From contig JACIYW010000007.1 in the NCBI GenBank assembly GCA_014359745.1, forward strand, positions 1 through 41,360: a DNA stretch of 41,360 nucleotides, read 5' to 3'. The notes under the pieces are model-generated. The model was given only the letters and a program-made list of their open reading frames with translations, was not told the origin of the DNA and searched no databases. The stretch is from Paracoccaceae bacterium. Its GTDB lineage: Bacteria; Pseudomonadota; Alphaproteobacteria; Rhodobacterales; Rhodobacteraceae. Positions 17,254 through 40,305 of this stretch are shown here, piece by piece. Position numbers and translations under genes: made by a program. How positions within the stretch are numbered: position 1 is the first letter of the stretch; the number at the start of each line of letters is the position of its first letter.

Positions 17254-19275
17254 CTAAAGAGCCAGACCCAAACGCCAGCCTTCTTCGATGGCGCGCGCGG
17301 CGTCCAGTTCCGTGGCGCGATGGGCGCCGCCGATCAGATGAACCGGCAGGTCGTCGGGGGTGTGGACCGGGTTGGGGTTTTGTCCGGCGCATATCACCAG
17401 CGTATCCAGGGCAATGACCTCCGGTTTCCCGTCCTGTTCGATATGCAGGCCATCGCTGTCCAGTCGCCTGTATGTGACCCCGGTTCGCATCTCGACCCCC
17501 TGGCGTTGCAGAAACCCGCGTCCGATCCAGCCGGTCGATACACCCAGAGTGGCACCTGGTCGGCCCACCTTGCGTTGCAACATGGTGATCTGGTGACGCG
17601 CAGGAGGGAATGACAGAGCTGCGCCCAGCAATCCGCCAGCTTCATGAAGCGTAGGATCCAGACCGTAATAGGCCTGAAAAACAGCCGGTACGGTGGTCAC
17701 CTCCTGCGGTATCGACAGGAACTTTGCCACGTCAAATCCGATCCCCCCCATGCCTATGATCGCAACGCGGTGCCCGGCCTTGGCGCGTCCTGTCAGAAGT
17801 TCGTCATATGTCACGACGCGCGGATCCCCGGCGATTCCGGGCAGGTCAGGCAGCCGGGGCGTTACGCCACTGGCCACGACAATGGCGTCAAACCCCTGTT
17901 CGCCCAAGATGGTTGCGTCGAAGATGGTACCGGTTCGCACGGTCACCCCGGTCGTTTCCAGCCGGTTCTGGTAATAGCGCAGCAGTTCCTTGTATTCGGT
18001 TTTTCCAGGCACGGCGCAAGCCAGATTGATCTGGCCGCCGATCGTGTCCGCTGCTTCGAACAGGGTCACGTCATGGCCGCGTGCGGCGGCGGTTATGGCG
18101 CAGCTCAGCCCCGCAGGGCCACCGCCGACGACAGCGATCTTGCGCGGTCGGGTTGCAGGGGTCACATCAAACAGGGTTTCGCGCGCAGCGGCGGGGTTGA
18201 CCAGACAGCCTGCCTCGCGGTCGGTCATGATGTGGTCAAGGCACAATTGGTTGCAGGCGATGCAGGTGTTGATCGCATCCGTCCGGCCATCCCGCGCCTT
18301 GGCGACGAAATCCGGGTCGGCCAGAAACGGGCGCGAGATGTAAACCATGTCGGCCGCGCCGCGGCTCAGGATGTCCTCGGCGACCTGCGGCATGTTGATC
18401 CGGTTGCAGGCCGCGACGGGCACCTTCAACCCGCGCTTGAGCCGCTCGATCGCGTAGGTAAAGGCCGCGCGCGGCACCGGATAGGCCACGGTCGGTATGC
18501 GCGATTCATGCCAGCCGACATAGCCGGTGAACAGATCGACCCCGGCATCGGTCAGTGCGGCGGCCAGTTGGTCGATCTCGTCCCCGGTCTGGCCATCCTC
18601 GACCAGATCGGCGGCACCGATCCGGTAGGTGATCAGGAACTCTGGCCCTTGTTCGGAACGGATGCGCCGGACGATCTCGACCGGTAGCCGGTGGCGGTTT
18701 TCCACAGAGCCGCCCCAGTCGTCGTCGCGCATGTTGGCCCGCCGGGTGGTGAATTCGCTAAGCAGATAACCGCCCGAACCGATGATCTCGACCCCGTCAA
18801 ACCCGGCGCCGCGCGCGAGCCGGGCGCAATTGGCAAAATCGTCGATGGTTTCGAGGATATCTGCGTGACTGAGGGCGCGCGGTGTAAACCGGTTTATGGG
18901 CGAGCGGATTTCGGATGGCGCGACAAGGCCGTCATGGCGGGCAGACCGCCCGGTGTGGGAGATCTGAAGGCAGATTTTCGCGCCTTCCGCGTGAACGACC
19001 TCTGTCACCTGCTCCAGTTCGGCGGCCTGCTGACGGGTCATCAGGAACGGGCCATCGGCGTCATAGCCGCCCGCCGCGTTCGGCGAATAGCCGCCGGTGA
19101 TGATCAGCCCGACGCCGCCACGCGCCCGCGCGCCATAAAACGCCGCCAGCCGTTCACCCGCGTTTTCGGACATTTCGATCCGCGTGTGCATGCCGCCCAT
19201 GATCACACGGTTTTTTAGAACCGTGTGACCGACTTTCACGGGGCTCATGAGCGTGGGGTAGGGGCCTGTGCTCAT
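17254..19275 (-). CDS. FadH-like NADH:flavin oxidoreductase / 2,4-dienoyl-CoA reductase
   Basis: This 673-residue protein has the three-part build of 2,4-dienoyl-CoA reductase. An N-terminal FMN-binding TIM barrel of the Old Yellow Enzyme family (RVIMGGMHTRI, ISHTGRS, GFDGVEIIGSGGYLLSEF) is followed by a 4Fe-4S segment with CIACNQLCLD and a further Cys before LVNPAA (around residues 335-355). Then come FAD and NAD(P) Rossmann modules (KIAVVGGGPAGLSCA; HRVAIIGMGGIGFDVAKF). Such enzymes reduce conjugated dienoyl-CoAs or other enone thioesters. The start at 19275 has GGAGGA upstream. It is the last gene of the minus-strand catabolic arm, 17 bases after the CoA-transferase beta gene, so its substrate is probably a CoA intermediate of that pathway. 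The family is firm; the reaction is inferred. Confidence 0.85.
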   Translation of the reverse strand: MSTGPYPTLMSPVKVGHTVLKNRVIMGGMHTRIEMSENAGERLAAFYGARARGGVGLIITGGYSPNAAGGYDADGPFLMTRQQAAELEQVTEVVHAEGAKICLQISHTGRSARHDGLVAPSEIRSPINRFTPRALSHADILETIDDFANCARLARGAGFDGVEIIGSGGYLLSEFTTRRANMRDDDWGGSVENRHRLPVEIVRRIRSEQGPEFLITYRIGAADLVEDGQTGDEIDQLAAALTDAGVDLFTGYVGWHESRIPTVAYPVPRAAFTYAIERLKRGLKVPVAACNRINMPQVAEDILSRGAADMVYISRPFLADPDFVAKARDGRTDAINTCIACNQLCLDHIMTDREAGCLVNPAAARETLFDVTPATRPRKIAVVGGGPAGLSCAITAAARGHDVTLFEAADTIGGQINLACAVPGKTEYKELLRYYQNRLETTGVTVRTGTIFDATILGEQGFDAIVVASGVTPRLPDLPGIAGDPRVVTYDELLTGRAKAGHRVAIIGMGGIGFDVAKFLSIPQEVTTVPAVFQAYYGLDPTLHEAGGLLGAALSFPPARHQITMLQRKVGRPGATLGVSTGWIGRGFLQRQGVEMRTGVTYRRLDSDGLHIEQDGKPEVIALDTLVICAGQNPNPVHTPDDLPVHLIGGAHRATELDAARAIEEGWRLGLAL

Positions 19276-19292
19276 CCTGTCCTCCTGCGGGC

Positions 19293-20117
19293 TCAGCGCG
19301 AAATCCGCAGGGTTTTCAGGATGCCGTCCGGGTCGATCACATCGCGGATCAGGGTCAGCTCCTGTTCGGACGGTTCGTCGGTTTGGCCGATATGATCGGG
19401 GATGATCAGATCAAAACCGGTCTTGTCCCGCACCTCTTCCAGGGTCACGCCGGGATGCAGCGACACCACCCGCATGGTTTTGGTCTTGTCGCTGTCGGGC
19501 GCGAAATCGAACACGCCCAGCGGGGTGAACACCTTTTGCGCACCGATACAGGCGGGCGGCACATGCTCGGCCCTCCGTTCGGTGTGACCAGCGGCAGAAA
19601 CGAAATCGACCTCCTCCACGAACACCTGTTTGTTGTGATGCATGGTAAAGAAGTAGACCAGCGTGAACGACACGCCAAAGGCCAGCCCCACGGTGCCGAC
19701 CCCGCGCACGGTCGGGTTTTCGTAATCGCCCACCGCGACCATGTTGCAACTGCCGCGCCGGTCGATCTGGATGCCGCCGACCACGCCGACCACGTTTTCA
19801 CGGCCCCGGTTGAACCGCCACATTTCGATATCGACGATATCTTCCATGTTCATCATGTATTCGGCACCGCGCATCACCCGGTGATCGGATGTGGACTGCA
19901 CCAGTTTCGAGGTCGAATTGATCGCCCCGCCGCCGCCAGCAAGCCACCACAGGTTGGGCGCATAGAGCATCCGCGCAAGTTTCATCGACGCCATCGGCAG
20001 CTGCGAATAGGCGCCAACGGCGGCCCAGTCGTGGTCATGGGTGCCCATCTGCCGGGCGATGGCCGAAACCATCAGTTCGCCGATCGCATAGTTGGGGTTG
20101 TTATGTGCGTCTGTCAT
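19293..20117 (-). CDS. CoA-transferase-family subunit beta (IpdB-like)
   Basis: This 274-residue protein belongs to the class I CoA-transferase beta family that includes glutaconate CoA-transferase B and the steroid ring-opening hydrolase subunit IpdB. Family features include the N-terminal helix IGELMVSAIARQM, GAYSQLPMASMKLARMLYAPN, and later segments DRRGSCNMVAVGDYENPTVRG and HPGVTLEEVRDKTGFDL. At the place where true transferases carry the glutamate of an ExG motif, this protein reads WLAGGGGAINS, so the covalent glutamyl-CoA mechanism may not apply. The ATG at 20117 has GGGAG upstream. It starts 15 bases after the alpha subunit gene, and the two surely form one enzyme. Function as a hydrolase rather than a transferase is inferred. 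Confidence 0.8.
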   Translation of the reverse strand: MTDAHNNPNYAIGELMVSAIARQMGTHDHDWAAVGAYSQLPMASMKLARMLYAPNLWWLAGGGGAINSTSKLVQSTSDHRVMRGAEYMMNMEDIVDIEMWRFNRGRENVVGVVGGIQIDRRGSCNMVAVGDYENPTVRGVGTVGLAFGVSFTLVYFFTMHHNKQVFVEEVDFVSAAGHTERRAEHVPPACIGAQKVFTPLGVFDFAPDSDKTKTMRVVSLHPGVTLEEVRDKTGFDLIIPDHIGQTDEPSEQELTLIRDVIDPDGILKTLRISR

Positions 20118-20131: not shown

Positions 20132-21025
20132 CTATACCTGTTCACGCAAGCCCATAAGATGTTCGATGCCGAACTTCTCAAGGTATTCGAAATGGCCCTT
20201 CACGCCGTAGACATATTCGTCGAGATAGGTGGTGATGTCGGCCTTGACGTAGGACTTGATGTGATCTTCGTCGTGGTTGTAGATGCCGTGGCACGACAGG
20301 GGGTGGGCACCGTAGGGCACATGAACTACCATGTCTATGTAATGGCCCGGTATTGTCGTGCGATGCGGATCGGCGCGGATGGAGTCATTGGTCACGATTT
20401 CGTCACAGGTGACAATCGTATGGGTCGATGCCTTGGCCAGCAGGTCATCGGCCACGACCGAGCCCAGATGCACCACGTTGCCATAGATGTCGGCGCGCGG
20501 CACATGGAGGATCGCCACATCCGGCCGGATGGCGGGCGAGACGATGATTTCCTTGCCGGTATAGGGATCGATGGTGCGTTTGTAGGTCTTTTCATAGATC
20601 GGATTGTCCCGCGCCTCGTGACCGGGCGGATAAGGGACGAACGGCATGCCCACGGCCCCGGCCTTGAGGCCCAGAACATAATAAATCTCATCGCCGTCGA
20701 TGATCCTGATCTTCTTTTCCTCGGCCGCCTTGCGGAACCGCGGGGCAAAGCCCAGATGCTCCATGCCGATATAGCAGACCGTGACCGTATCGACGCATTC
20801 CGCGCCAATCAGGATATCGGCTGGCATCCCGGCCGAGACATTGGCGATGAGGTGCAGGTCTTTGGTCCCTTGCCGGATGATTTGGCGGATCAGCGCCATC
20901 GGCCCGTTATGTGAATGCAGTCCGCCAAAGGCCAGTTGCGTGCCGTCCTTGATCATCGCGGCGGCGTCTTCCAGTGTTCCCAGCTTTGATTGTCGTTTCT
21001 TGCCGTTCAGAAAGATGGGGTCCAT
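20132..21025 (-). CDS. CoA-transferase-family subunit alpha (IpdA-like)
   Basis: This is the partner of the beta subunit that follows it. The protein has 297 residues with the class I CoA-transferase alpha fold: an N-terminal LEDAAAMIKDGTQLAFGGLHSHNGPMALIRQII segment matching the family's glycine-rich CoA-binding region, a DLHLIANVSAGMPADILIG strand-loop, and a later PDVAILHVPRADIYGNVVHLGSV block. Relatives include glutaconate CoA-transferase A and IpdA, which opens the last steroid ring in mycobacteria. The ATG at 21025 has AGAGGA upstream; the longer open frame before it has no site. It lies 43 bases downstream of the nitronate-monooxygenase-like gene. The family is clear; the substrate is unknown. 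Confidence 0.82.
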   Translation of the reverse strand: MDPIFLNGKKRQSKLGTLEDAAAMIKDGTQLAFGGLHSHNGPMALIRQIIRQGTKDLHLIANVSAGMPADILIGAECVDTVTVCYIGMEHLGFAPRFRKAAEEKKIRIIDGDEIYYVLGLKAGAVGMPFVPYPPGHEARDNPIYEKTYKRTIDPYTGKEIIVSPAIRPDVAILHVPRADIYGNVVHLGSVVADDLLAKASTHTIVTCDEIVTNDSIRADPHRTTIPGHYIDMVVHVPYGAHPLSCHGIYNHDEDHIKSYVKADITTYLDEYVYGVKGHFEYLEKFGIEHLMGLREQV

Positions 21026-21068: not shown

Positions 21069-22214
21069 TCAGCCGAAACTGACCCGCGTCGGCAATTCAC
21101 GCGACAGGATCTCTGTCGCGCTTTCAATCATTTCCTTGATGATGGTGGCGGCAGGCAGCACTTCGGTGATGCGCGCGGCGCCCTGACCGCAATAGATGCC
21201 GCTGTCTTCGTACCGCCCGGCCTGAGCCGCACCAATGGTCATCGGTGTCACCAGAATACCCTGTTCGGGCATTGGCAGGGCCTCCAGCCCCGAGGCGTCG
21301 CATTGACGGTCCCACTCGCTGCCGATATGGCGGGTGGTCTTGCCGGTGAACCAGCGGTTGCGCACGGTTGAGGTGTCGGTGGCGCCGACCAGCTTGTCCT
21401 TGTACCAGTCCGGCACCGAACATTCCTCGGATGCGATGAACCGGCTGCCGACCCATGCGCCGATTGCCCCCAGTGCCAGCATTCCCGCAAGGCTGCGTCC
21501 GTTGGTGACGCCACCACCGGCGACGACCGGGGTCGGTGCCACGGCCTCAGACACGGCGGGCACCAGAACTGTGCCGTCAACCGCGCCGGAGTGCCCGCCG
21601 GCGGCGGTGCCGGTGGCGATTACCGCGTCAACCCCGCCATTGCCGACGCGTATGGCATCCTTGGTCTTGCCGATCACCGACATTACCCTGATCCCGGCTG
21701 CATGGGCATCTTTGACCATGAAGGACGGATCGCCCAGTGCGGACACGAACACCGTCGGCTTCAGATCGAGAACGGCGCGCACCTGCTGCTGGCCGAGCTC
21801 ATAGCTGAGCTTGTAGGCCGCGATCGAACTCATTCCCGGTGTGGCGTGGCTGGTGTCGTCGTCGTAAGGTATGTTGTTGTCTGCCATGAACCCATCGCGG
21901 AAAGCGACGTGATCGGCGGGCAGGTTGGCCAGTTCCAGCGCGCGGCGGTAATCGGTGGTGAAATTCTTGGCCTTGATTGGCAGGCCAACGTCGATGCCAA
22001 ATGGCTTGCCGGTCAGCTTTTTGACCTCTTTGACCAAATCACGCATTTCATCGGGGGATTTGTCGGCGCAGGCCAGAACGCCGATGCCGCCGGCCTCGGA
22101 CACCGCCGCCACCAGGCGCGGGTCGGACACATCCGGCGCCATCGCCGCCAGCATGATCGGATAATCAATGCCCAGCATGTCGCACAGTTTCGTTCTGAAT
22201 ACGGGCTTGCTCAT
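21069..22214 (-). CDS. Nitronate monooxygenase-family FMN protein (IpdC-like context)
   Basis: This 381-residue flavoprotein belongs to the 2-nitropropane dioxygenase / nitronate monooxygenase family. It shows the TIM-barrel FMN pattern: YPIMLAAMAPDVSDPRLVAAVSEAGGIGVL at the N-terminus, GTAAGGHSG for flavin and phosphate contact, VVAGGGVTNGRSLAGMLALGAIGAWVGSRF for the phosphate-binding turn, and CGQGAARITEVLPAATII at the end. Family members in catabolic clusters act on CoA thioesters; mycobacterial IpdC is one, encoded with IpdAB. Here too the gene precedes IpdA/IpdB-like genes. The start has AAGGAGG upstream, and the ATG overlaps the stop of the carboxylase alpha gene by four bases (ATGA). 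A role in nitronate detoxification is less likely given the neighbours. Confidence 0.8.
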   Translation of the reverse strand: MSKPVFRTKLCDMLGIDYPIMLAAMAPDVSDPRLVAAVSEAGGIGVLACADKSPDEMRDLVKEVKKLTGKPFGIDVGLPIKAKNFTTDYRRALELANLPADHVAFRDGFMADNNIPYDDDTSHATPGMSSIAAYKLSYELGQQQVRAVLDLKPTVFVSALGDPSFMVKDAHAAGIRVMSVIGKTKDAIRVGNGGVDAVIATGTAAGGHSGAVDGTVLVPAVSEAVAPTPVVAGGGVTNGRSLAGMLALGAIGAWVGSRFIASEECSVPDWYKDKLVGATDTSTVRNRWFTGKTTRHIGSEWDRQCDASGLEALPMPEQGILVTPMTIGAAQAGRYEDSGIYCGQGAARITEVLPAATIIKEMIESATEILSRELPTRVSFG

Positions 22215-24202
22215 TGGTCGGCCTCCTTGCCAGGTTCGAATCGGATGAGTTGCGCATTTATGATGACTTGCTGGCCCTCGGCAGTGCTGATCTCTGCGAT
22301 GCGACCGGCAAGAGGGGCGACGATGGTGTGTTCCATCTTCATCGCCTCGATGATCAGCAGGGGTGTGCCTTCGGTCACGTCCTGCCCTTCGCTCACCATC
22401 AGTTTCAGCACCTTGCCATGCAATGGCGCCGTGACCAGATCCTGCACGCCGGAGGCGGTGGTGTCGAAGGGATCGCCCTGTTCGTCACGCAGGCGCAGGG
22501 CGGGACCGCCAAATTGCAGCAATACAGCCTGATCGGCGTCGAACGCAAAGGCCCCGCTGCGGATCAAACCGTCGATTGACGCGGTGATTTCGGGGGCCTT
22601 GTCGTGAACAACTTCGAGGCTGATAATCTGGTCGCCCAGCGTCACCGAATAGGCGTCGTGCCCATGGGCGGTGACACAAAGATCAAAACGGTCCTCACCG
22701 TTGCCCAGCCGGAAATAGGACAGGGCCTGCCCGTCGCTGTGCCAGTCGCGCAATTCAGGCGCGATGCCGGTCAGCCGGTCGGCATCGCGCCGCAGCATCA
22801 GAACCGCCGCCGGCGCGGCCTGTTCAGGGTTGGCGGTCGGGCGGCTCAGGCCCAGCACGTCCATCTCTGCGTCAAGAAACCCGGTGTCGGCGGCGCTGTT
22901 CACAATCGCCGGATGATCCAGAAGACCAGCGAGAAACCCGGCGTTGGTTTCCACCCCAAGCAACACGGTTTTTTTCAGCGCGGTCTTCAGCCTGCGCCGC
23001 GCTTCTTCGCGGTCAGAACCATAGGCGATGATCTTGGCCACCATCGGGTCATAGAAAGAGGTGATCTCTTGCCCTGCCGCCAGCCCGTGATCGACCCGGA
23101 TGCCGTCGCCCTGCGGCGCCTGCCAGACCAGCACCTCCCCGGTTGAGGGCATGAACCCCTTGTGCGGCATCTCTGTATAAAGCCGGGCCTCGATGGCGTG
23201 ACCGTCAAAGGTGATCTGATCCTGCGTCAGTGGCAGTGGATTGCCCTGCGCGACCTGAAATTGCCAGTTCACAAGGTCTTGAGAGGTGATCATTTCGGTT
23301 ACGGGATGTTCCACCTGAAGCCGTGTGTTCATCTCGAGGAAATAGAAACTTCCGTCACTGCTCAGCAGGAATTCGACTGTGCCGGCGCCGCAATAATTGA
23401 TCGTGCGGGCGGCCTGAACGGCGGCTCGGCCCATGGTTTCGCGCAGTTCGGACGACACACCGGGCGCGGGGGCCTCTTCGATCACTTTCTGGTGTCGGCG
23501 CTGGATGGAACAGTCACGCTCTCCCAGGTGCACCACGTTGCCGTGGCTGTCGGCAAACACCTGAATTTCGATGTGACGGGCATTTCGGATGGCGCGCTCA
23601 AGGATAAGTGTGTCGTTGCTAAACGCCGCCAGAGCCTCTCGCCGTGCCGCCTCTATGGCACCGGGTATGTCGGCGGGATCGGTAACAAATCGCATCCCCT
23701 TGCCCCCGCCCCCGGCAGCGGCCTTCACCAACAGCGGCACGCCTATGTCCTGCGCCGCCGCCAGAAGCACCTCGTCCGACTGATCCGCATCGTTATAACC
23801 GGGTACGCAGGGAACGCCTGCCGCGATCATCCGGCGTTTGGATTCGGCCTTGTCGCCCATGACCCGGATTGCCTCGGGCGAGGGGCCGATGAATGCCAGA
23901 CCGGCATCGGCGCAGGCCTGGGCGAATTCGGCATTCTCGGCCAGAAATCCATAGCCGGGGTGGATGGCCTGGGCGCCAGACCGGCGCGCGGCGTCGATGA
24001 TCGCCTCTATGTTCAGATAGGATTGTGTCGCCGGGGCCGGGCCGATGGCCACGGCGACATCGGCGGCGCGCACATGGGCGCTGCCCTTGTCGGCCTCGGA
24101 ATAGACCGCCACAGAAGCATAGCCCAGTGATTTGGCGCTGCGGGCGATCCGGCAGGCGATTTCGCCGCGATTGGCGATCAGAACTGTGTCAAACTGTGCC
24201 AT
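22211..24202 (-). CDS. Biotin-dependent acyl-CoA carboxylase alpha subunit (biotin carboxylase + BCCP)
   Basis: This 663-residue protein carboxylates its own biotin using ATP and bicarbonate, for transfer to an acyl-CoA by the beta subunit. The biotin carboxylase domain starts FDTVLIANRGEIACRI and shows HPGYGFLAENAEFA, the ATP-grasp loop AAAGGGGKGMRF, RDCSIQRRHQKVIEEAPAP and FLEMNTRLQVEHPVTE. A BT-like linker follows, then a C-terminal biotinyl domain with EAMKMEH, whose lysine carries biotin. This layout matches methylcrotonyl-, geranyl- and propionyl-CoA carboxylase alpha chains. Its ATG shares bases with the stop of the truncated hydratase (TAATG). The matching beta subunit is encoded at 25839-27449, three genes upstream. 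Substrate specificity cannot be read from this subunit. Confidence 0.92.
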   Translation of the reverse strand: MAQFDTVLIANRGEIACRIARSAKSLGYASVAVYSEADKGSAHVRAADVAVAIGPAPATQSYLNIEAIIDAARRSGAQAIHPGYGFLAENAEFAQACADAGLAFIGPSPEAIRVMGDKAESKRRMIAAGVPCVPGYNDADQSDEVLLAAAQDIGVPLLVKAAAGGGGKGMRFVTDPADIPGAIEAARREALAAFSNDTLILERAIRNARHIEIQVFADSHGNVVHLGERDCSIQRRHQKVIEEAPAPGVSSELRETMGRAAVQAARTINYCGAGTVEFLLSSDGSFYFLEMNTRLQVEHPVTEMITSQDLVNWQFQVAQGNPLPLTQDQITFDGHAIEARLYTEMPHKGFMPSTGEVLVWQAPQGDGIRVDHGLAAGQEITSFYDPMVAKIIAYGSDREEARRRLKTALKKTVLLGVETNAGFLAGLLDHPAIVNSAADTGFLDAEMDVLGLSRPTANPEQAAPAAVLMLRRDADRLTGIAPELRDWHSDGQALSYFRLGNGEDRFDLCVTAHGHDAYSVTLGDQIISLEVVHDKAPEITASIDGLIRSGAFAFDADQAVLLQFGGPALRLRDEQGDPFDTTASGVQDLVTAPLHGKVLKLMVSEGQDVTEGTPLLIIEAMKMEHTIVAPLAGRIAEISTAEGQQVIINAQLIRFEPGKEADQ

Positions 24203-24639
24203 TACGGTGCTTTTCCGGCGGATGCCCAGCTGGGTGCGCGCTTTTCGTGGAACGCGCTCACACCTTCGCGACCTTCGTCGCCCTTCAGCGCGTTGGCAAA
24301 ACGGTGTGCTGCCATATCAAACGTGTCCGCAAGCGGAGCTGCGCCGACAACTGCCTGACGCACAAGCCCAAGCCGCAGCGCCTCGGCTCCGTCAAAGCGC
24401 GCGGCGCTCGGCAGACGGCCAAGGCGCCGGTTTTCCACGGCCACCTGTTCAGGATTGTCCGCGCCCTGATAGTTGCGCTGAAAATCGTTCAGATTACCCC
24501 CTGCGCAGAAACTTCCACCCGCGCCACGGACCACAACAATTCGGATCACCGGATCGTTTGCCCGCGCCGCCGCCACCTGTTCCGGTTCGCTGGATAACTC
24601 CGGTCTTTCACATGGACTCTGCGCGGTATTCTGAACCAT
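24202..24639 (-). pseudogene. Enoyl-CoA hydratase-family gene with internal in-frame deletions
   Basis: The frame is open (145 residues), but a normal crotonase has about 260. The recognisable pieces are IRIVVVRGAGGSFCAGGNLNDF, which contains the first oxyanion-hole region, then NRRLGRL joined directly to PSAARFDGAEALRLGLV, and the usual C-terminal ANALKGDEGREGVSAFHEKRAPSW. The central 90 or so residues, with the GGG oxyanion turn and both catalytic glutamates, are missing, and the N-terminal strands also appear shortened (CER runs straight into PELSSEP). The product should be inactive. Start and stop overlap both neighbours (TGATG with the dehydrogenase, TAATG with the carboxylase), so translational coupling survives. 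A complete hydratase at 32631 may cover the step. A misassembly is the alternative. Confidence 0.75.
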
Positions 24640-27449: not shown

Positions 27450-27679
27450 GGTTCGGGCCAGTTCTGGTAAGGCTGGAATCGGGATCATGGTAATTTGAGC
27501 ACCACTCAGCTTTTTTGTTTTTCAACCCAGTGAGTAACCGTTAAGTGAGGTAGTGCCTTGTTTATGCGCGCAAAACGGAACCGCGCCCGCCGCCAATCCA
27601 GTAACGATGAAAGGAATGCCAGCAGGTGCCGTCATTGCACGTTGCGCCCGGCAAGCCGGGGCCTTCAAAAGAAATCCGG
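27450..27679. other. Intercistronic gap with direct and inverted repeats
   Basis: This is the only sizeable gap (230 bases) inside the minus-strand catabolic arm. It contains AGTGAGT and AGTGAGG flanking AACCGTT (around 27528-27551) and an A-rich run on the minus strand. It could hold a promoter or operator for the carboxylase-to-FadH segment; I see no convincing -10/-35 pair and no gene. Confidence 0.3.
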
Positions 27680-30458: not shown

Positions 30459-30662
30459 TGAATTCTCCTCCGGCAAGGCCAACGCGCCGCCGGTTGGCGA
30501 CAGCGATTCTGAGTTCCCGACAAACGCTAGCGCAGGAATTTTGAATTGTCATTCATTTAATTTATTTGCAGTTCATCTGATAATCCACTAGGTACTACAA
30601 GTGACCAGTCGTTCAATTCGACATCACCGATCCGTTGATTCCAAAGTTAAAAAGGGTATTTT
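30459..30662. promoter_or_regulatory. Divergent promoter region with candidate TetR operator
   Basis: This 204-base gap separates the minus-strand thiolase gene from the plus-strand TetR gene and includes an AT-rich stretch (about 30535-30600), unusual in this GC-rich window. At 30602-30615 lies TGACCAGTCGTTCA, with TGA/TCA ends, overlapping GTCG-N7-CGAC (30608-30622). TetR-family repressors often bind such sites in their own divergent promoter. The palindromes are imperfect, so the operator call is tentative. Confidence 0.45.
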
Positions 30663-32630: not shown

Positions 32631-33419
32631 ATGGGTTTCGAGGGGAATGCCGTCAGTCTGTGCTGGCCATCGCCCGGTGTGGCTATGGCAACCATGACCC
32701 GTGCGGGAGAAATGAACACCCTGCATCTAGACCTGATAGACGAAATGGGCCGCGCCATTGACGAGGCGCAGGAAAACAAGGCCCGCGCTCTGATCCTGAC
32801 CGGCAACGGGCGCGCCTTCTGCTGCGGTGCCCACTTGAAGTACTTCGATAAGGGCACCCTAGACCGCTTTGACATCAGGGATAATTATCTGAATCGGATT
32901 GCCCTACTGTTCGATCGGATCGAGGCCATTTCCATCCCGGTCATAGCGGCTGTCAACGGCTATGCCATGGGCGGCGGATGTGAAATGGCGCTGGCCTGTG
33001 ATTTCCGCATCATGGCGCAGGGCGCAATCATGGCGCTGCCCGAGGTTAAGCTGGGCGCGACGCCCGGTGCCGGGGGCGTGCAGAAGCTGGCGAAATACTG
33101 CGGGCGCGGCAAGGCGACCGAGGTGATCCTGCTGGCGCAGGACATCGACTGTGATTACGCTCGAGAATTGGGGCTTTTATATACCTCTGTGCCGCCCGAA
33201 GGGCTGCTAGAGGCCGCCCTTGATCTGGCCGCGCAGCTGATGAAATTTAGCCCGATGGCCATTGGTCAGTGCAAGGCATCCATCCACATCGCCGAAGATT
33301 GCGACCTGCGCACCGCCCGCCGCTATGGGCTTGAGGCGCTGAGCAATCTGATCGGGTCTTCTGACTGGGAGGAAGGCATGACCGCCTTTCACGAAAAACG
33401 CGAACCGGAGTTTGGTTGA
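32631..33419 (+). CDS. Enoyl-CoA hydratase/isomerase
   Basis: This 262-residue crotonase-family protein has normal length. The first oxyanion site is in ALILTGNGRAFCCGAHLKYF, and the second in VNGYAMGGGCEMALACDFRIM, where the Glu matches one catalytic glutamate; ALPEVKLGATPGAGG supplies the second. The C-terminus ends EEGMTAFHEKREPEFG. It should hydrate an enoyl-CoA, or isomerise or hydrolyse a ring substrate, as the superfamily allows. GGGAGGAG stands upstream of the ATG. It abuts livG (stop TGA directly followed by ATG). It may replace the deleted hydratase at 24202, though the two sequences are clearly different family members. Confidence 0.9.
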   Translation: MGFEGNAVSLCWPSPGVAMATMTRAGEMNTLHLDLIDEMGRAIDEAQENKARALILTGNGRAFCCGAHLKYFDKGTLDRFDIRDNYLNRIALLFDRIEAISIPVIAAVNGYAMGGGCEMALACDFRIMAQGAIMALPEVKLGATPGAGGVQKLAKYCGRGKATEVILLAQDIDCDYARELGLLYTSVPPEGLLEAALDLAAQLMKFSPMAIGQCKASIHIAEDCDLRTARRYGLEALSNLIGSSDWEEGMTAFHEKREPEFG

Positions 33420-34193
33420 ATGAGAAACACGGTCCTTTCTGCCAAGAGCCTGCGTCTGACATTTGGCGCAATCACAGCTGTTGAGGATATTTCGCTGCAG
33501 GTAAAAACCGGTCAGATCTGTGCTCTCATCGGTCCCAACGGTGCTGGCAAAAGTAGCTTTCTCAACTGTCTTTCGGGGTTTTACAGCCCCTCGTCCGGCA
33601 CGGTCGAATTCGAGGGCGAGGACATTACCGGCCTCACACCTTTCCGACGCGCTGAAATGGGCATGGCGCGAACGTTTCAGGGCAATCAGACCTATCAGTC
33701 GATGACGGTGCGCGAAAACATCCTGTCGGGCTTTCACAGCCAGATGCGCAGCGGATTGCTGGGTGGGCTGCTATATTGGGGCGGGGTTCAGCAGGAAAAC
33801 GCGCATTTCATTAATCTGGCCGAGGAAATCATCGAGTTTCTTGAGCTTGAGCCATTGCGCAACACCCTGGTGGGCGAACTGGGTTACGGATTGCGCAAGC
33901 GCATCGACCTTGGTCGCGCCCTAGGGTTGAATCCGAAGATCCTGATCATGGATGAGCCGATGGCGGGCATGAACACCGAGGAAAAGGGCGATCTGGCGCG
34001 CTTTATTCTGGATATCCGCGATGCGCGTAATATCCCGATCATTCTGGTTGAACACGACATGGAAGTCGTGATGGACATTTCCGACGAGGTCACGGTGATC
34101 GACTGGGGCAAGGTCATTTCCTCTGGGCCGCCGGACAAGGTGCGCAGCGATCCCAAGGTGATATCGGCCTATTTGGGTGGGGGCGTGGTATGA
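33420..34193 (+). CDS. livG: Branched-chain-type ABC transporter ATP-binding protein LivG
   Basis: This 257-residue ATPase is one of two for a Liv/HAAT-type importer. Walker A is GPNGAGKSS, the signature region is LVGELGYGLRKRIDLGRAL (a relaxed LSYG motif as usual for LivG), Walker B is KILIMDEPMAGM and the switch His lies in ILVEHDMEVV. The C-terminal YLGG end is also typical of LivG. It starts immediately after the hydratase stop and overlaps the ligase start (ATGA). Liv-type systems in catabolic clusters often import aromatic or other organic acids rather than amino acids, so the symbol refers to the family and not the substrate. Confidence 0.93.
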   Translation: MRNTVLSAKSLRLTFGAITAVEDISLQVKTGQICALIGPNGAGKSSFLNCLSGFYSPSSGTVEFEGEDITGLTPFRRAEMGMARTFQGNQTYQSMTVRENILSGFHSQMRSGLLGGLLYWGGVQQENAHFINLAEEIIEFLELEPLRNTLVGELGYGLRKRIDLGRALGLNPKILIMDEPMAGMNTEEKGDLARFILDIRDARNIPIILVEHDMEVVMDISDEVTVIDWGKVISSGPPDKVRSDPKVISAYLGGGVV

Positions 34194-36142
34194 CACAGAT
34201 AACAGGCGTTCTTGGCACCGATCCCCGTACCATCGCCGGGCGTTCGATCCCGCAACTGCTGCTGGAAAGGGCCAGTTCTTTTCCGGACGACACGTTCCTG
34301 CAGAAGAAGCATTTCGGACTCTGGAAACCGTTCACCTGGTCCCAGACCCTGAACATGATCAGCCGCTATACCTATGGGTTGACCGCGCTGGGGGTCGAGC
34401 CGGGCGATTGCGTGGCGCTGATCAGCGAGAACATCGTCGAGGGGTTCGTTGCCGAATATGCGATCCTGTGCCGGGGCGCGCTGTGCGCGGCGATGTATCC
34501 CGACATGAGCGTCAGCGAGATGGAGCATATCCTGCGCGACAGCGCTGCCCGCGTCGTGTTTGCAGAAGACCAGGAGCAGGTGGACAAGGCGCTGACCCTG
34601 ATCGACAAGGTGGAAACGCTGGAATGGATCGTATATTTCGACGATCGCGGCATGTGGGGTTACGACCACCCGCAAGTTCTGAGCGTCGAGGAAATGGAAA
34701 GACGGGGCGAGGGGTTTCATACAAAATTCCCCGAGCAGTTTGAACAGGTTGTCGGCAGTGTCGGCCTGCGGGATGTGGCGATCATCAGCTATACATCGGG
34801 CACCACCGGGCTGCCCAAGGGCGCGCGTCTCAGTCATGAATTCTTGCTGGACAGCGGCTATCGGCTGATGGACGCGTTCAACGTCAAACACGGCCATGAA
34901 TATCTGTCCTATATCTCGCAGGCATGGGCGGCCGAACAGATCTGCGGCATCGCCTTGGGTGTTCTGGCGCCGATGGTGGTCAGTTTCGCGGAAAAGCCCG
35001 AAACCGTACCCAATGATCTGCGCGAACTTGCACCCGAATTTTTGTTGTTCACCCCGCGTCAGTGGGAAATGATGGCGTCCGGATTGCAGGCCAACATGTT
35101 TGATGCGCACCCGCTGGTGCGCCGCCTTTACGAGTGGGCGTTGGCCACCGGCAAGAAACACCGCGATGCGCGGGGACTGAGCAGCAAGTTGAGGATGGCG
35201 ATGGCCGACCTGCTGGTGCTTGCCGGTGTGCGCGACAATCTGGGGCTGAAGCGGGCCAATGCGCCGCTGAGCGCCGGGTCGGGGCTGTCCGAAGAGATTT
35301 TCACCTATTTTCATGCCATCGGAATCCCGCTGAGAAACCTTTATGGCGCTACCGAATCCGGCCTTGTCGCTGCACATTGGAAAGGTACATTCAACGCCCG
35401 CACCATGGGGCAATTGTTGCCGGTCGATCCGACTATCGGTACCCTCCTGGTTGCCGATGTCAGCGACACGGGCGAGTTGCTGCTAAGCGGGGGGGCGAGG
35501 TTCTCGGGCTATCACAACAATCCCGATGCCAGCGCCGAGAGTTTCAACGAGGCCGGTCAATTCCGAACCGGCGATGCGATCCGCATTACGGAAGACGGGG
35601 ACATGATTTTTCTTGACCGGGTCAAGGATTTGCGTACGCTTGCCAACGGCCATGTCTATCCGCCGCAGTTTCTGGAAAACAACCTGCGCTCGTCACCTTT
35701 CATCAAGGATGCGGTGATTATCGGTGACGAAAACTATGACCGGGTAAGCGTACTAATCAACATTGATGCGGAAATCTGCGGTCGCTTCGCCGAACGCAAC
35801 GGCTTGGGGTTTGGCACCTTCGCCGAACTGAGTCAGTTGCCGGAGGTGATCGAACAGATTGCCAAGACGATTGCGGAGGTGAACCAGATGCTTGATGCAC
35901 CGTCGCGGGTGGCCAGTTTTTGCTGCCTGCCCAAGGAACTGGACCCGGACGATGCCGAACTTACCCGGTCGCGCAAGCTGCGGCGCAACGTGATCTTCGA
36001 CCGCTATGCCACGGCAATCGAGGCGCTTTATGGCGACGACGACGAATGTGATCTTGAGGTTGTGATAAAATACCAAGATGGGCGGGAGTCTGTTGTGCGA
36101 TCGGTGGTGACGATAAAACGGATGGAGAACGCGGATGATTGA
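34190..36142 (+). CDS. AMP-dependent acyl-CoA ligase (long-chain ACS-like)
   Basis: This 650-residue adenylate-forming enzyme activates a carboxylic acid to its CoA thioester with ATP. The motifs are AIISYTSGTTGLPKGAR (P-loop), NLYGATESG, and the hinge region FRTGDAIRITEDGDMIFLDRVKDLRTLANGHVYPP; the C-terminal TRSRKLRRN contains the likely catalytic lysine. The length and the LSAGSGLSEEIFTYFHAIGIPLRNLYG segment match the long-chain (FadD15/bubblegum-like) group. It is encoded inside the transporter operon, overlapping livG by four bases and livH by eight, which suggests that uptake and activation are coupled. The true substrate is probably the imported acid of this pathway. Confidence 0.9.
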   Translation: MTQITGVLGTDPRTIAGRSIPQLLLERASSFPDDTFLQKKHFGLWKPFTWSQTLNMISRYTYGLTALGVEPGDCVALISENIVEGFVAEYAILCRGALCAAMYPDMSVSEMEHILRDSAARVVFAEDQEQVDKALTLIDKVETLEWIVYFDDRGMWGYDHPQVLSVEEMERRGEGFHTKFPEQFEQVVGSVGLRDVAIISYTSGTTGLPKGARLSHEFLLDSGYRLMDAFNVKHGHEYLSYISQAWAAEQICGIALGVLAPMVVSFAEKPETVPNDLRELAPEFLLFTPRQWEMMASGLQANMFDAHPLVRRLYEWALATGKKHRDARGLSSKLRMAMADLLVLAGVRDNLGLKRANAPLSAGSGLSEEIFTYFHAIGIPLRNLYGATESGLVAAHWKGTFNARTMGQLLPVDPTIGTLLVADVSDTGELLLSGGARFSGYHNNPDASAESFNEAGQFRTGDAIRITEDGDMIFLDRVKDLRTLANGHVYPPQFLENNLRSSPFIKDAVIIGDENYDRVSVLINIDAEICGRFAERNGLGFGTFAELSQLPEVIEQIAKTIAEVNQMLDAPSRVASFCCLPKELDPDDAELTRSRKLRRNVIFDRYATAIEALYGDDDECDLEVVIKYQDGRESVVRSVVTIKRMENADD

Positions 36143-37019
36143 ACTTGTTCAGAGCCTGTCTTCGGGGGTTTTGTTAGGCCTTCTCTACGGCATCGTGGCG
36201 CTGTCTTTCGTGGTGATCTACCGCGCCTCAAGGGTGGTCAATCTGGCCCAGGGTGAAGTGGTGATGGTCGGTGCGTTCCTGGCCTGGATGGCGGCGTCTT
36301 CGTTTGGATTACCTTTGTATCTGGCGATACCGGCGGCCCTGGCGATGTCGGCGTGTTTCGGGGTGATAATCGAAAGGTTTGTCTTCCGCCCGCTGACCGG
36401 CCAGCCGATCTTTGCCGTTGTCATGGCTAGCATCGGCCTGATCATCCTGCTGCGCGGCGCGACCATGGTGATCTGGGGGCCGGCCACGCGGCCGTTCCCG
36501 CAGGTGTTCCCGCTGGGAGCCATTGAGATCGGGCCGATCCTGCTGAATACGGCGCTGTTGATTGGCGGGGTGATTACCATCATCTGCGCTGCGGGGCTGA
36601 ACTGGTTCTTCATGCGCACCGATGCCGGGCTGCGGCTGGCGGCGGTGGCCGAGGATCACACCACCGCGCTGTCGATGGGGATTTCGGTCAAGAAGTCGGC
36701 AATCATCGCTTGGGTGCTGGGAACCACGCTGGCCACGGTATCGGCGATTATCATGCTGTCGGGCAGCGTTCTGGGTGTCACGGCGGCCGAGATCGGGTTC
36801 CGCGCCTTGCCGGTGGCTTTGCTGGGCGGGATGGAATCGGTGCGCGGGGCGGTTATCGCGGGGGTTCTGGTGGGCATGGCCGAGGCGCTGGCCTCGACCT
36901 ATCTGGATCCGTTGACTAACGGAGCACTGTCGCAGATTTTCCCGTTCATTCTGATAATCTTGGTTCTTCTGATCCGTCCGCAGGGGTTGTTCGGATGGAA
37001 GATCATCGAAAGGATCTGA
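36135..37019 (+). CDS. livH: Branched-chain-type ABC transporter permease LivH
   Basis: This 294-residue inner-membrane permease has about eight hydrophobic segments. Family marks are LLYGIVALSFVVIYRASRVVNLAQGEVVMVGAF near the N-terminus, GATMVIWGPATRPFP, and the EAA-like loop RTDAGLRLAAVAEDHTTALSMGI. It ends ILIILVLLIRPQGLFGWK, typical of LivH. The ATG lies within the last codons of the ligase gene, indicating tight coupling. The partner permease is encoded one base after its stop. Confidence 0.93.
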   Translation: MIELVQSLSSGVLLGLLYGIVALSFVVIYRASRVVNLAQGEVVMVGAFLAWMAASSFGLPLYLAIPAALAMSACFGVIIERFVFRPLTGQPIFAVVMASIGLIILLRGATMVIWGPATRPFPQVFPLGAIEIGPILLNTALLIGGVITIICAAGLNWFFMRTDAGLRLAAVAEDHTTALSMGISVKKSAIIAWVLGTTLATVSAIIMLSGSVLGVTAAEIGFRALPVALLGGMESVRGAVIAGVLVGMAEALASTYLDPLTNGALSQIFPFILIILVLLIRPQGLFGWKIIERI

Positions 37020-37020
37020 A

Positions 37021-38076
37021 ATGCTGCCCTCTGGTATAATATTCAAGTCCTACGCAGCCGAAGAGGCTTTTCTTGTAACCCGTCCGCAGAAGCTGGTTTT
37101 CGCGCTGTTTATTGTTGCACTGTTCCTGTTCCCCATGGTCGGCTCGACCTATCTGGTGGGCACGGTTTCTGTCATGATGATCACCATGATCGCGGTTCTG
37201 GGCTTGCAGATCACGGTGGGCATGGCCGGCCAGATCAACCTCGGCCAGTCGGCGTTTGTTGGGGTCGGGGCCTATGTCACGGCGGCGATGGCGGTGAATT
37301 ACGAGTTGCCGTTCTGGCTGGCGATCCCGATTGGCGGTCTGACGGCGGGTCTGACCAGCATCTTGTTCGGCCTGCCGGCAGCGCGGATCAAGGGGTTCTA
37401 TCTGGCCCTGACCACCGTGGCCGCGCAGGTGATGTTCCCGCTTGCCATCTCGCGCCTGCCGCAGTCGTGGTTTGGCGGCTCCAACGGCATGTCGATGCCG
37501 TCAATGGAACTGTTCGGCTACGAAATCTGGGGGCAGACGGGGCTTTATCTGGTCAACCTGTGCTTTCTGATCGTGTTCACCACGCTGGCCTTCAACCTGC
37601 AGCGCAGCCGCGTCGGACGCGCCTTTATCGCCATTCGCGAGAACGACGTGGTGGCGCCCGTGATGGGCATCAACCTGGTAAAGTACAAGATTCTGGCGTT
37701 CTTCATCGGTGCGGTGTTCGCTGGCATTTCGGGCGGGCTTTACGCTTATTACGTCACCTACGTCACCGCCGAGCAATTCACCCTTTGGCTGTCGGTGATC
37801 TATCTCGGCATGTTGCTGATCGGCGGCATGACCAGCCCGCTGGGGGCGATATTCGGGGTGATTATCATCACGTTCTTGCAGGAAACCACGCACGAGATCG
37901 GCGGCTATCTGTCCGGCAGGATCAGCTTTGTCGATGAAAGCGTGCTATTCCCGGCCACCAACATTCTGCTGGGCGCCGTCATCATCGCTGTGCTGATCTT
38001 TGAACCGCATGGCATGGTACGGCGCTGGCGGATCGCTAAAGCGGCCTATCGGATATGGCCCAACCCGCATGGATAA
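37021..38076 (+). CDS. livM: Branched-chain-type ABC transporter permease LivM
   Basis: This 351-residue permease has an extended N-terminus before the first membrane segment (KLVFALFIVALFLFPMV) and the LivM blocks LGLQITVGMAGQINLGQSAFVGVGAYVTA, GFYLALTTVAAQVMF and SRVGRAFIAIRENDVVAPVMGINLVKYKILAFFIGAVFAGISGGLYAYY. AAGGATCTGAA precedes the ATG. It should form the membrane channel with LivH. The 148 bases after its stop hold a small hairpin and the livK ribosome binding site. Confidence 0.93.
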   Translation: MLPSGIIFKSYAAEEAFLVTRPQKLVFALFIVALFLFPMVGSTYLVGTVSVMMITMIAVLGLQITVGMAGQINLGQSAFVGVGAYVTAAMAVNYELPFWLAIPIGGLTAGLTSILFGLPAARIKGFYLALTTVAAQVMFPLAISRLPQSWFGGSNGMSMPSMELFGYEIWGQTGLYLVNLCFLIVFTTLAFNLQRSRVGRAFIAIRENDVVAPVMGINLVKYKILAFFIGAVFAGISGGLYAYYVTYVTAEQFTLWLSVIYLGMLLIGGMTSPLGAIFGVIIITFLQETTHEIGGYLSGRISFVDESVLFPATNILLGAVIIAVLIFEPHGMVRRWRIAKAAYRIWPNPHG

Positions 38077-38170: not shown

Positions 38171-38187
38171 CACCGGTTCTTCCGGTG
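38171..38187 (+). other. Small hairpin in the livM-livK gap
   Basis: CACCGG (38171-38176) pairs with CCGGTG (38182-38187) around a 5-base loop. It lies 37 bases before the livK ATG and may help set the higher expression normal for a binding protein. The rest of the 148-base gap shows nothing else. Confidence 0.35.
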
Positions 38188-38224
38188 CTCAAAAAGGTGA
38201 AGTCCAACAAAGGAAGGACAAAAT

Positions 38225-39463
38225 ATGTCGATCGTTAGAAGTATTCAAACGCTTGGGCGAGGTGCTGCTGCGGCTGCCGTGTTAGGGCTGTCGCTTGTGA
38301 GTGCTCCAATGGCACAGGCCGAAACCGACTATACGTTCAGTGTGTCGGTCGATTTCACCGGTCCATTTGCCGACATCATGCCGAACTGGCATGCGGCGCA
38401 CCGGGCCATGGTGGACTACTGGAACGATACCACCGGCAAGGATCTGGGCGTCAAGGTCAACATGGCTGTCAACGATATGCGCTATGACGCATCCGTCGTG
38501 GCCAAGACCTGGCCCGGCATCCTGGCCAGCGCAAAGCCGATCATGCATATCGGCATGGGCTCGCCCGACCTGATGAGCCTGATGAAACGCCTGCCGCGCG
38601 ATCAGGTGCCGATGATCATGGGCACCGCCATGGTCGGTACGGTCTGGGCGCCCGATGGCTGGCATTTCTCGTTCCGCCCGACCTATAGCCATGAATTCGC
38701 GGCCATGCTGGATCATCTGCAAAAGGGACTGGGCGAGGACCGCCCGCTGCGCATCGGCACCGTTTCTACACAGGGGCGCGCCGGCTACGAAGATCAGGTC
38801 AAGGGCGTCGTGCAACTGACCAAGATGTATCCCGACCGGTTCGAGATCGCCGGCCACGAATGGGTTGCCGACCATCCGGTGACCGTCACCAACGAAATCC
38901 GCCGGATGCTGGAAAGCAAACCGGACGCGATCATCATCGGTGCCACCACAACTCAGGTGATTGCCACCGTGCGCGCGCTTGAGGAGCTGAAAGCCTCTGA
39001 CGTCGCCGTTGTCACCGCCTCGCAGAATGGCCTGGACATAGTTTCCGAATCGTTGGGTCTGGACGCGCTCGAGGGTGACTATTCGGTTTTCTCCTTCGCC
39101 CCATCGATGGAGCCGGGTCTGAAGGCGCGCGATGTCTATAACAAGTACCACACTGGGGCGGGGAAATGGGATCTGGGCGCGGCGCAATCAGCGGCACAGA
39201 TGCTGGTAGCCTTGCGCACGCTGGAAGGCGCAGTCGCAGCGGTTGGCGCCGACAAGGTAACCGGGAAGGCGATGTATGAAAGCCTGTTGGCGACCAATTT
39301 CACGTCCGAGATGATGCTTGGCCTGACGCCAGACTTGGATTTCGACACCACCGCGCCGTTCCCGGTGGGCGAAATCAGGGCAAAGGCGATCACCGTCAAG
39401 GACGGGGTGATCGTGCCTGCGTCCGACGGCTGGATGACGGCGCCGTTGCTTGAAAAATGGTGA
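38225..39463 (+). CDS. livK: Periplasmic substrate-binding protein of the Liv-type importer
   Basis: This 412-residue protein of the Leu/Ile/Val-binding family (periplasmic binding fold type I) starts with a signal peptide, with hydrophobic AAAAAVLGLSLVSAPM and cleavage after AQA near residue 32. The mature part opens DYTFSVSVDFTGPFADIMP and has a two-lobe layout (PMIMGTAMVG in lobe 1, RIGTVSTQGRAGYEDQVKGVV and AIIIGATTTQVIATVRALEEL in lobe 2). It differs much from amino-acid LivK, so the ligand is likely the pathway's organic acid. AAGGAAGG precedes the ATG. It lies between livM and livF, a common order. Confidence 0.9.
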   Translation: MSIVRSIQTLGRGAAAAAVLGLSLVSAPMAQAETDYTFSVSVDFTGPFADIMPNWHAAHRAMVDYWNDTTGKDLGVKVNMAVNDMRYDASVVAKTWPGILASAKPIMHIGMGSPDLMSLMKRLPRDQVPMIMGTAMVGTVWAPDGWHFSFRPTYSHEFAAMLDHLQKGLGEDRPLRIGTVSTQGRAGYEDQVKGVVQLTKMYPDRFEIAGHEWVADHPVTVTNEIRRMLESKPDAIIIGATTTQVIATVRALEELKASDVAVVTASQNGLDIVSESLGLDALEGDYSVFSFAPSMEPGLKARDVYNKYHTGAGKWDLGAAQSAAQMLVALRTLEGAVAAVGADKVTGKAMYESLLATNFTSEMMLGLTPDLDFDTTAPFPVGEIRAKAITVKDGVIVPASDGWMTAPLLEKW

Positions 39464-39507
39464 TCACACCAGTCTGAACACCTGATGACAAGGGAAGGAT
39501 CCTGACA

Positions 39508-40305
39508 GTGTTGCTTGAACTCAAGAATGTCGAAGTCGTCTATAGCGGCGTTGTTCAGGTTCTCAGAAGCGTCAATATCGACGTTCCCAAGGGAAGTGTC
39601 GTGGCGATTCTGGGTGCAAACGGCGCCGGCAAGTCAACCACGCTCAAGGCGATCTCCAGCTTGCTGGAGATCGAACACGGCGAGGTTTCGGACGGTGAAA
39701 TTCTGTATCAGGGAAAAGACATCGCCAATACGGACCCTGCCGACATCGTGCGTCAGGGGATTGTTCAGGTGCTTGAGGGCCGCAAGGTTCTTGAGCATTT
39801 GACAGTCGAACAGAACCTGCGCCTCGGAGCGCATTTTCGCAAAGACCGCGACGTGGTCGCCGAGGATGTGGAGCGCGTTTTCAACTATTTCCCGGCCCTG
39901 CGCGCTCTGCTGAAACGCACCGCCGGCTATCTGTCGGGCGGCGAAATGCAGATGTTGCTGGTCGGGCGCGCACTGCTGGCCAAGCCCAAAATCCTACTTC
40001 TGGATGAGCCGACGATGGGGTTGGCGCCGTTGATCGTAGAGGAAATCGTATCCTGTCTGAAACAGATTCATGCACAGGAAGACATGAGCATGATTATCGT
40101 TGAACAGAACGCCAACGCGGCCCTGTCGGTGGCCGACTATGCCTATGTTCTGGAAAACGGGCGCATCGTCATGCATGGGCCCAAAGAGGAATTGCAGAAG
40201 AACCAGGATATCCAGGAATTCTATCTGGGCCTCTCCATAGGCCAAGACCGCAAAAGTTTTCGTGAGATCAAACACTATAAGCGCCGCAAACGATGGCTTG
40301 GCTAG
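39508..40305 (+). CDS. livF: Branched-chain-type ABC transporter ATP-binding protein LivF (GTG start)
   Basis: This second importer ATPase has 265 residues. Walker A is GANGAGKST, the signature is YLSGGEMQMLLVGRAL, Walker B is KILLLDEPTMGLAP and the switch His position reads IIVEQNANAAL, the usual LivF variant. The GTG at 39508 (LLELKNVEVVYSGVVQVLR) has GGAAGGA upstream. The C-terminus carries an extra basic tail (REIKHYKRRKRWLG) compared with short LivF proteins. It is the last intact gene of the plus-strand arm; the next gene is cut off by insertion sequences. Confidence 0.93.
   Translation: MLLELKNVEVVYSGVVQVLRSVNIDVPKGSVVAILGANGAGKSTTLKAISSLLEIEHGEVSDGEILYQGKDIANTDPADIVRQGIVQVLEGRKVLEHLTVEQNLRLGAHFRKDRDVVAEDVERVFNYFPALRALLKRTAGYLSGGEMQMLLVGRALLAKPKILLLDEPTMGLAPLIVEEIVSCLKQIHAQEDMSMIIVEQNANAALSVADYAYVLENGRIVMHGPKEELQKNQDIQEFYLGLSIGQDRKSFREIKHYKRRKRWLG

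Follow-up and report, generated by a model that had tools for sequence, protein, structure and literature searches.

A rare modular catabolic island, candidate for the degradation of beta-methyl-branched isoprenoid-type acids, in a Paracoccaceae bacterium and unrelated bacteria

Isoprenoid and alicyclic acids are widespread, and the bacterial routes that open beta-methyl-branched skeletons have, to our knowledge, been worked out for few compounds. Among the closest described enzymes, geranyl-CoA carboxylase (GCC) has Gly162 where methylcrotonyl-CoA carboxylase (MCC) has Phe191, and it lacks the 3-residue insertion that precedes this Phe (Jurado et al., PMC4673880). In IpdAB, the Glu54beta of CoA transferases is replaced by Gly57beta, and the enzyme has no transferase activity and catalyzes a retro-aldol hydrolysis (Crowe et al., PMC5380842). 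The Tyr of a YDxF/Y motif is the catalytic base in the retro-aldolases Ltp2 and Sal (PMC12329534), and the removal of C24-branched side chains from sterols proceeds through carboxylation, hydration, and cleavage by the heteromeric aldol lyase Ltp3-Ltp4 (PMC6678751). We describe here a locus at positions 17254-40305 of a contig from a marine, Roseovarius-like Paracoccaceae bacterium that carries relatives of several of these enzymes. The sequence analyzed (the window) is the whole contig C230, 41,360 nt with zero ambiguous bases, from a 2.93 Mb assembly of 262 contigs rated 100% complete.

All gene families named for this region in an earlier note on the DNA, including one intact and one deleted hydratase, were found at these positions, split into two divergent transcription units. 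The plus unit consists of TetR, an acyl-CoA dehydrogenase, a hydratase, and a Liv importer with an acyl-CoA ligase embedded among the Liv genes, and the minus unit of an aldolase trio, the carboxylase, an NMO-family flavoprotein, a CoA-transferase-fold pair, and FadH. Genes overlap or are mostly separated by <80 bp, the exceptions being gaps of 191 bp upstream of GccB and 148 bp upstream of LivK. We propose, with about even confidence, that these genes form a modular catabolic island whose substrate is a carboxylic acid of isoprenoid type with a beta-methyl branch, probably one that contains or yields an alicyclic beta-keto acyl-CoA. What is new is the combination of known modules, which recurs in unrelated bacteria. 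A search of one literature library for the gene combination found no paper assigning a substrate, as the note had supposed, and the co-occurrence in other genomes on which the note had let its proposal depend was observed: the core recurs with ~64-77% identity in six metagenome-assembled genomes (MAGs) of beta- and alphaproteobacteria and, in complete form, in Roseovarius amoyensis. The genes of the minus unit are as follows.

29349..30482, minus strand: Thl2, divergent thiolase-fold subunit (best NCBIfam match PRK07937, lipid-transfer protein; no Pfam thiolase match)
28165..29352, minus strand: Thl1, thiolase-fold protein with YDPF, predicted retro-aldolase subunit from its active-site residues
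27680..28144, minus strand: DUF35/OB-fold partner, ChsH2 C-terminal type (PF01796, 1.7e-10)
25839..27488, minus strand: GccB, GCC-type carboxyltransferase, AtuC-like (PDB match, residues, tree)
24639..25799, minus strand: ACD1, acyl-CoA dehydrogenase in the atuD position (orthologues in core loci)
24202..24639, minus strand: ech, remnant of an enoyl-CoA hydratase in the AtuE position, 145 aa (comparison with R. amoyensis)
22211..24202, minus strand: GccA, biotin carboxylase/biotin carboxyl carrier protein subunit, AtuF-like (biotin motif EAMKM present)
21069..22214, minus strand: NMO/FabK-like flavoprotein, a core gene (orthologues beside CtA)
20132..21025, minus strand: CtA, CoA-transferase-fold alpha subunit (E112 aligned to IpdA E105)
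19293..20117, minus strand: CtB, CoA-transferase-fold beta subunit (Gly at the transferase Glu site)
17254..19275, minus strand: FadH/OYE-family reductase at the end of the unit (52-55% relative near the core in genome G583)

A branched isoprenoid-type acid is suggested because the pocket residue of the carboxylase and its linkage to AtuA both fit such a substrate. The best PDB matches of GccB were the GCC beta subunit of Pseudomonas (5ikl, 5e-172) followed by an MCC beta subunit (3u9r, 2e-139). Where MCC has Phe191, GccB has Gly and is without the preceding 3-residue insertion, and the same holds throughout its clade save for one paralogue with Ala, whereas the MCC group of 3u9r has Phe. The split of the GCC clade was supported 100/100 in a tree from which the partial GccB of G583 was left out, and pocket residue and tree together rule out an MCC annotation. 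The order GccB-ACD1-ech-GccA is that of atuCDEF and is intact in R. amoyensis GCL-8, where AtuA (PF07287, 1.4e-135) and a metallo-beta-lactamase (MBL)-fold hydrolase lie directly past LivF. Between the window and R. amoyensis, GccA is 78% and its partner GccB 88% identical, and GccA has a dN/dS of 0.17. The earlier note had granted the Atu pathway the carboxylase but neither IpdAB nor Ltp2. The atuCDEF order and the neighboring AtuA had been overlooked, and the locus is closer to Atu than the note held.

CtA was used as a query against 84,980 named genomes, which yielded eight loci; its nearest named relatives are in Roseovarius UBA6167 (98% identity) and R. amoyensis GCL-8 (93%). The window genus is represented by one genome only, that of the window strain, among the genomes compared, and open reading frames of the loci from high-GC MAGs were called with a codon-usage caller. 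The entire set, AtuA and AtuE included, is intact in R. amoyensis. The core ACD1-NMO-CtA-CtB is conserved at ~63-78% in four betaproteobacterial MAGs; two alphaproteobacterial MAGs have NMO-CtA-CtB and CtA-CtB-ACD1, respectively. ACD1 orthologues in the core are 75-78% identical and NMO orthologues beside CtA in five MAGs 63-71%, and ACD1 relatives of ~60% lie between or adjoin gccB and gccA in other loci. The contig of G583 carries LivF-K-M-H-ligase-LivG, ECH, ACD2, and TetR divergent from Thl2-Thl1-DUF35-ACD1-NMO-CtA-CtB, followed by FadH, which is the order of the window minus the carboxylase; its Thl2 orthologue, 63% identical, adjoins the core (L029). Genome G586 has NMO, CtA, CtB, ACD1, ECH, GccA, GccB, LivK-G-ligase-H-M-F, and an orthologue of the MBL hydrolase (54%) on a single contig, with a thiolase-fold/DUF35-like pair and AtuA farther along. 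The order LivG-ACS-LivH-LivM is common to the window, G581, G583, and G586, and in the latter three the importer-ligase block is beside the core or on its contig.

A GCC-type beta subunit is encoded in every core-bearing genome (partially in G583), and full-length AtuA in all seven other core-bearing genomes, UBA6167 being excluded as a fragment only. Within the window's family AtuA is present in 20 of 149 genomes (13%) and within G583's class in 11 of 143 (8%), base rates under which seven of seven has p < 1e-6 if shared ancestry and genome size are ignored. The system is rare. At core identity, CtA was absent from 289 class, 296 family, and 369 further genomes save the window genome and G583, and among 98 members of the G583 family it was present in G583 and G584 only. 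Relatives of CtA at ~41-44% in that family (L103-L107) were rejected as cluster members; they are accompanied by other ligases and transporters and no GCC. Plasmid neighborhoods of close GccB and AtuA relatives (L021-L024, L112) hold atu-like sets without the window's combination, and a scan of viral contigs gave no match. An AtuA sharing about 59% identity with the R. amoyensis protein is encoded on numerous plasmids of marine roseobacters (Sulfitobacter, Pseudosulfitobacter, Sagittula, Roseibium, and Roseovarius indicus), and plasmid L112 has two carboxylase sets beside AtuA. The region of ~50 kb on contig C141 of G586 (L032, L077, L108) is a larger relative of the window locus: besides Liv/ligase genes, GCC, and AtuA, it has three NMO paralogues, two AraC regulators, and a CaiB-type transferase.

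CtA and CtB have the fold of type I CoA transferases. The catalytic Glu54 of these enzymes is replaced by Gly in CtB in all eight loci, and CoA-transferase function of CtAB is rejected on the missing Glu. E112 of CtA, which aligns with the position mutated in PDB 6coj (IpdA E105A), is Glu in all eight loci; GctA and AibA do not have Glu there. Judged by these residues, the active site of CtAB resembles that of the C-C hydrolase IpdAB, yet the pair is not a member of the steroid IpdAB group. Tentatively, and as something we expect less often to be right than wrong, CtA-CtB with the NMO may form a new family of C-C hydrolases with the CoA-transferase fold, one that is non-steroidal and serves the GCC/AtuA branch of isoprenoid-acid degradation. 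One pathway would then have two or three ways to break beta-blocked acyl-CoAs, namely the retro-aldolase trio, carboxylation followed by AtuA, and CtAB.

The thiolase-fold proteins are not thiolases. SCP2-type thiolase function is rejected for both, since each lacks the catalytic Cys and the GH His. In Thl1 the thiolase Cys is replaced by Gly, the HDCF His by Tyr, and the GH His by Asn; its YDPF aligns with YDHF of TcLtp2 and YDCY of Sal, placing the Tyr at the position of TcLtp2 Tyr294. Thl2 has none of the thiolase catalytic residues and no Tyr of the YDPF type. The DUF35 gene is encoded with Thl1 and Thl2, and the trio, which by its residues looks like a heteromeric retro-aldolase, is kept in G583, R. 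amoyensis, and L111. The last of these is a plasmid of Simplicispira suum (L111:26-15775), on which a Liv importer, an acyl-CoA ligase, and TetR are divergent from Thl2-Thl1-DUF35, followed by an MBL protein, short-chain dehydrogenases/reductases (SDRs), and another thiolase-fold/OB pair. This related catabolic module has no carboxylase or CtAB nearby, which indicates that the trio is portable.

The plus unit encodes the importer and the activating enzymes, as listed below together with the contig end.

30663..31352, plus strand: TetR regulator (TetR_C_24), start possibly 30747 (45% orthologue in the equivalent divergent position in G583)
31396..32553, plus strand: ACD2, acyl-CoA dehydrogenase
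32631..33419, plus strand: ECH, intact enoyl-CoA hydratase
33420..34193, plus strand: LivG ATPase
34190..36142, plus strand: ACS, long-form acyl-CoA ligase, FadD11-like, inside the Liv genes
36135..37019, plus strand: LivH permease
37021..38076, plus strand: LivM permease
38225..39463, plus strand: LivK-type solute-binding protein (no PDB relatives by sequence)
39508..40305, plus strand: LivF ATPase
40547..41360, plus strand: insertion-sequence remnants at the contig end (R. amoyensis has the MBL hydrolase and AtuA there)

Across the two units, the 19 intact genes compared between the window and R. amoyensis are under purifying selection (dN/dS 0.05-0.17, NG86), which argues for a system maintained in the lineage and makes chance assembly unlikely. 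The locus adjoins genes that, from their translations, we take to be rpsO-pnp and glcDEF. The remnants at 40547-41360 are what we read, from the translated sequence, as a frameshifted IS630-like transposase followed by the start of an IS110-like open reading frame.

The locus had been called complete, which the data do not support. Neither a 3-hydroxyacyl-CoA dehydrogenase nor a genuine thiolase is in the locus, the AtuE-position hydratase is dead, and AtuA is absent: a PF07287 search of the window genome gave no match. The closest relative of the MBL hydrolase in that genome is only 41% identical. Two betaproteobacterial MAGs share, near the core, an SDR conserved at 80% (L029:12450-13247 and L076:5669-6457) that is possibly the missing hydroxyacyl-CoA dehydrogenase. 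As to the hydratase, R. amoyensis has an intact enzyme of 275 aa between ACD1 and GccA, and the window gene has lost 216 and 102 nt in internal deletions and is also shortened in its N-terminal part, every loss being a multiple of three. The remnant keeps its short overlaps with ACD1 and GccA, and what is lost includes the middle of the crotonase fold. The AtuE-type hydratase of the window strain is thus predicted to be non-functional, with the carboxylation arm broken at this step. In UBA6167 (L026:1-2400), one deletion fuses the start of ech to the end of the NMO gene, such that ech, GccA, and NMO are gone; ACD1, CtA, CtB, and FadH remain open, and GccB is reduced to its last 59 residues. 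This contig opens with an apparent 16S rRNA fragment, and the GccB end may be an assembly effect.

From the families, diagnostic residues, conservation, and co-occurrence described above we infer the substrate class, the order of steps, and each catalytic assignment as follows. LivKHMGF would take up the acid and the embedded ligase would form its CoA ester, with ACD2 and ECH carrying out beta-oxidation. Thl1-Thl2-DUF35 may cleave a tertiary beta-hydroxyacyl-CoA as a retro-aldolase, not a thiolase. ACD1 would desaturate a beta-methylacyl-CoA, of which GccAB would carboxylate the gamma carbon to give a 3-substituted glutaconyl-CoA. In intact loci, the AtuE-type hydratase would then yield a 3-substituted 3-hydroxyglutaryl-CoA, and the AtuA lyase would free acetate and leave a beta-ketoacyl-CoA. 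AtuA-type lyases, ThnQS, are reported to cleave a tertiary beta-hydroxyacyl-CoA in naphthalene degradation (PMC12016498, citing unpublished work); a review, however, credits LiuE with this cleavage in Pseudomonas (PMC4097962), and the role given to AtuA here is tentative. The NMO flavoprotein and CtAB may process another blocked intermediate, CtAB as an IpdAB-like retro-aldol C-C hydrolase rather than a CoA transferase, and FadH would clear dienoyl intermediates. The presence together of GCC/AtuA, the aldolase trio, and an IpdAB-like hydrolase would suit a substrate with several blocked positions, for example an isoprenoid acid.

Several observations weigh against this proposal. The sequences nearest to CtA are glutaconate CoA-transferase (1.5e-41) and AibA (5.6e-34), which act on acyclic substrates, ahead of IpdA (7.8e-21), with an identical ranking by fold; CtB is about equally near to IpdB and GctB. 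In Thl1, neither the second acid of Ltp2 (Tyr344; NP in this region) nor that of Sal (Cys304; Pro in YDPF) is present. A fold search with the predicted LivK structure returned a generic Liv-type match and no hint of a ligand. The Gcc genes of G583 and G584 are on a separate contig, and of the seven other genomes four gave no Thl2 homologue at E 1e-20, so the modules can occur apart. A ring in the substrate is argued for solely by the CtAB active-site residues, and we consider it quite possible, if slightly doubtful. Of the cyclic or branched, possibly isoprenoid-derived acid proposed in the earlier note, branching agrees with pocket residue and AtuA linkage, and a ring would fit the IpdAB-like residues of CtAB. 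The substrates of GctA and AibA, glutaconyl- and 3-methylglutaconyl-CoA, would point instead to a route confined to acyclic terpenoid acids, a variant of Atu that degrades geranate, citronellate, or farnesoid-type acids and in which CtAB acts on the 3-alkylglutaconyl-CoA made by GccAB. CtAB could then stand in for AtuE and AtuA, and the retention of GccAB without both in the window strain would be explained; the ACD1-GCC-AtuA linkage and the constraint on the GccAB frames despite the dead ech and lost AtuA are also consistent with this route. We think it somewhat unlikely, as AtuA is retained together with CtAB in all other genomes, where no replacement has taken place, E112 of CtA is found in neither GctA nor AibA, and no genes of the AtuB, AtuG, or AtuH type were identified in the window locus.

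The same losses could mean that what the window strain carries is a decaying relic of the locus, with a functionless carboxylation arm and with importer, aldolase, and CtAB genes that serve another, simpler substrate. The several ech deletions, the absence of AtuA and of a close MBL hydrolase, and the insertion-sequence remnants at the edge agree with decay, as does the UBA6167 deletion that removed ech, GccA, and NMO but spared ACD1, CtA, CtB, and FadH. This we judge unlikely: GccA and GccB are intact and constrained, although the constraint also spans the time before any recent loss, and UBA6167 is a fragmentary MAG. Far less probable still is a steroid pathway, either for rings C/D (ipdABC) or for removal of C24-branched side chains by a carboxylase and Ltp3-Ltp4. 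The adjacency of NMO, CtA, and CtB recalls ipdC with ipdAB, and the published degradation of phytosterol side chains follows the same chemistry, with a carboxylation, a hydration, and an aldol cleavage (PMC6678751). The earlier note, which overlooked this, is right for rings C/D in that they have no carboxylase. CtA is, however, only 31% identical to IpdA, CtB 29-34% to IpdB, and the NMO 30% to IpdC, whereas among true steroid IpdA proteins from Actinomycetota and Pseudomonadota identities are 48-85%, a range outside which CtA falls. The NMO is on a branch separate from IpdC, whereas the IpdC proteins of Novosphingobium and Nocardia share 46% identity. Elsewhere in the genome, PF01144 matched only two adjacent genes on C191 and one gene at a contig end on C12, and ipdF, echA20, and a heterodimeric fadE partner are not in the locus. 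Low identity and missing partner genes lead us to reject a steroid C/D assignment, and by identities and residues CtAB does not belong to IpdAB, the NMO not to IpdC, and Thl1 and Thl2 not to Ltp2, as the note had implied they might.

The proposed island for a branched isoprenoid-type acid allows three steps of C-C bond cleavage to be predicted at the level of residues and put to the test, with R. amoyensis GCL-8 as an intact carrier. If CtAB is a hydrolase, many genomes hold genes annotated as "glutaconate CoA-transferase" that should be divided according to whether they encode Glu or Gly at this site.

Among known systems, the thn operon for anaerobic naphthalene degradation is alike in logic, with acyl-CoA dehydrogenases, a CoA-transferase, and AtuA-like lyases that open alicyclic acyl-CoAs, but it belongs to sulfate reducers and no GCC carboxylase is listed for it. 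AibAB and glutaconate CoA-transferase are the solved structures closest to CtA by sequence and fold; glutaconate CoA-transferase retains the catalytic Glu that CtB lacks, and AibA and GctA are without the Glu of CtA E112. IpdAB and IpdC share with the locus adjoining NMO-family and CoA-transferase-fold genes, the Gly of CtB, and the Glu of CtA at IpdA E105, but identities are ~30%, EchA20, IpdF, and the ring C/D partners are absent, and the locus sits with GCC and AtuA. Removal of C24-branched sterol side chains has the same chemical logic, and the lipid-transfer-protein profile of Thl2 and its pairing with Thl1 recall Ltp3-Ltp4, likened here by description and not by Ltp3/Ltp4 sequence; steroid nucleus genes were not found near the locus, and its carboxylase arm is of the GCC/AtuA type. 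With the Atu pathway of Pseudomonas, the locus has in common the atuCDEF order, the GCC pocket residue, and, in R. amoyensis, AtuA beside the locus. The window strain differs from it in its dead AtuE and missing AtuA, and the window locus goes beyond it in having an NMO, CtAB, FadH, the aldolase trio, and a Liv importer among whose genes a long-form ligase is embedded.

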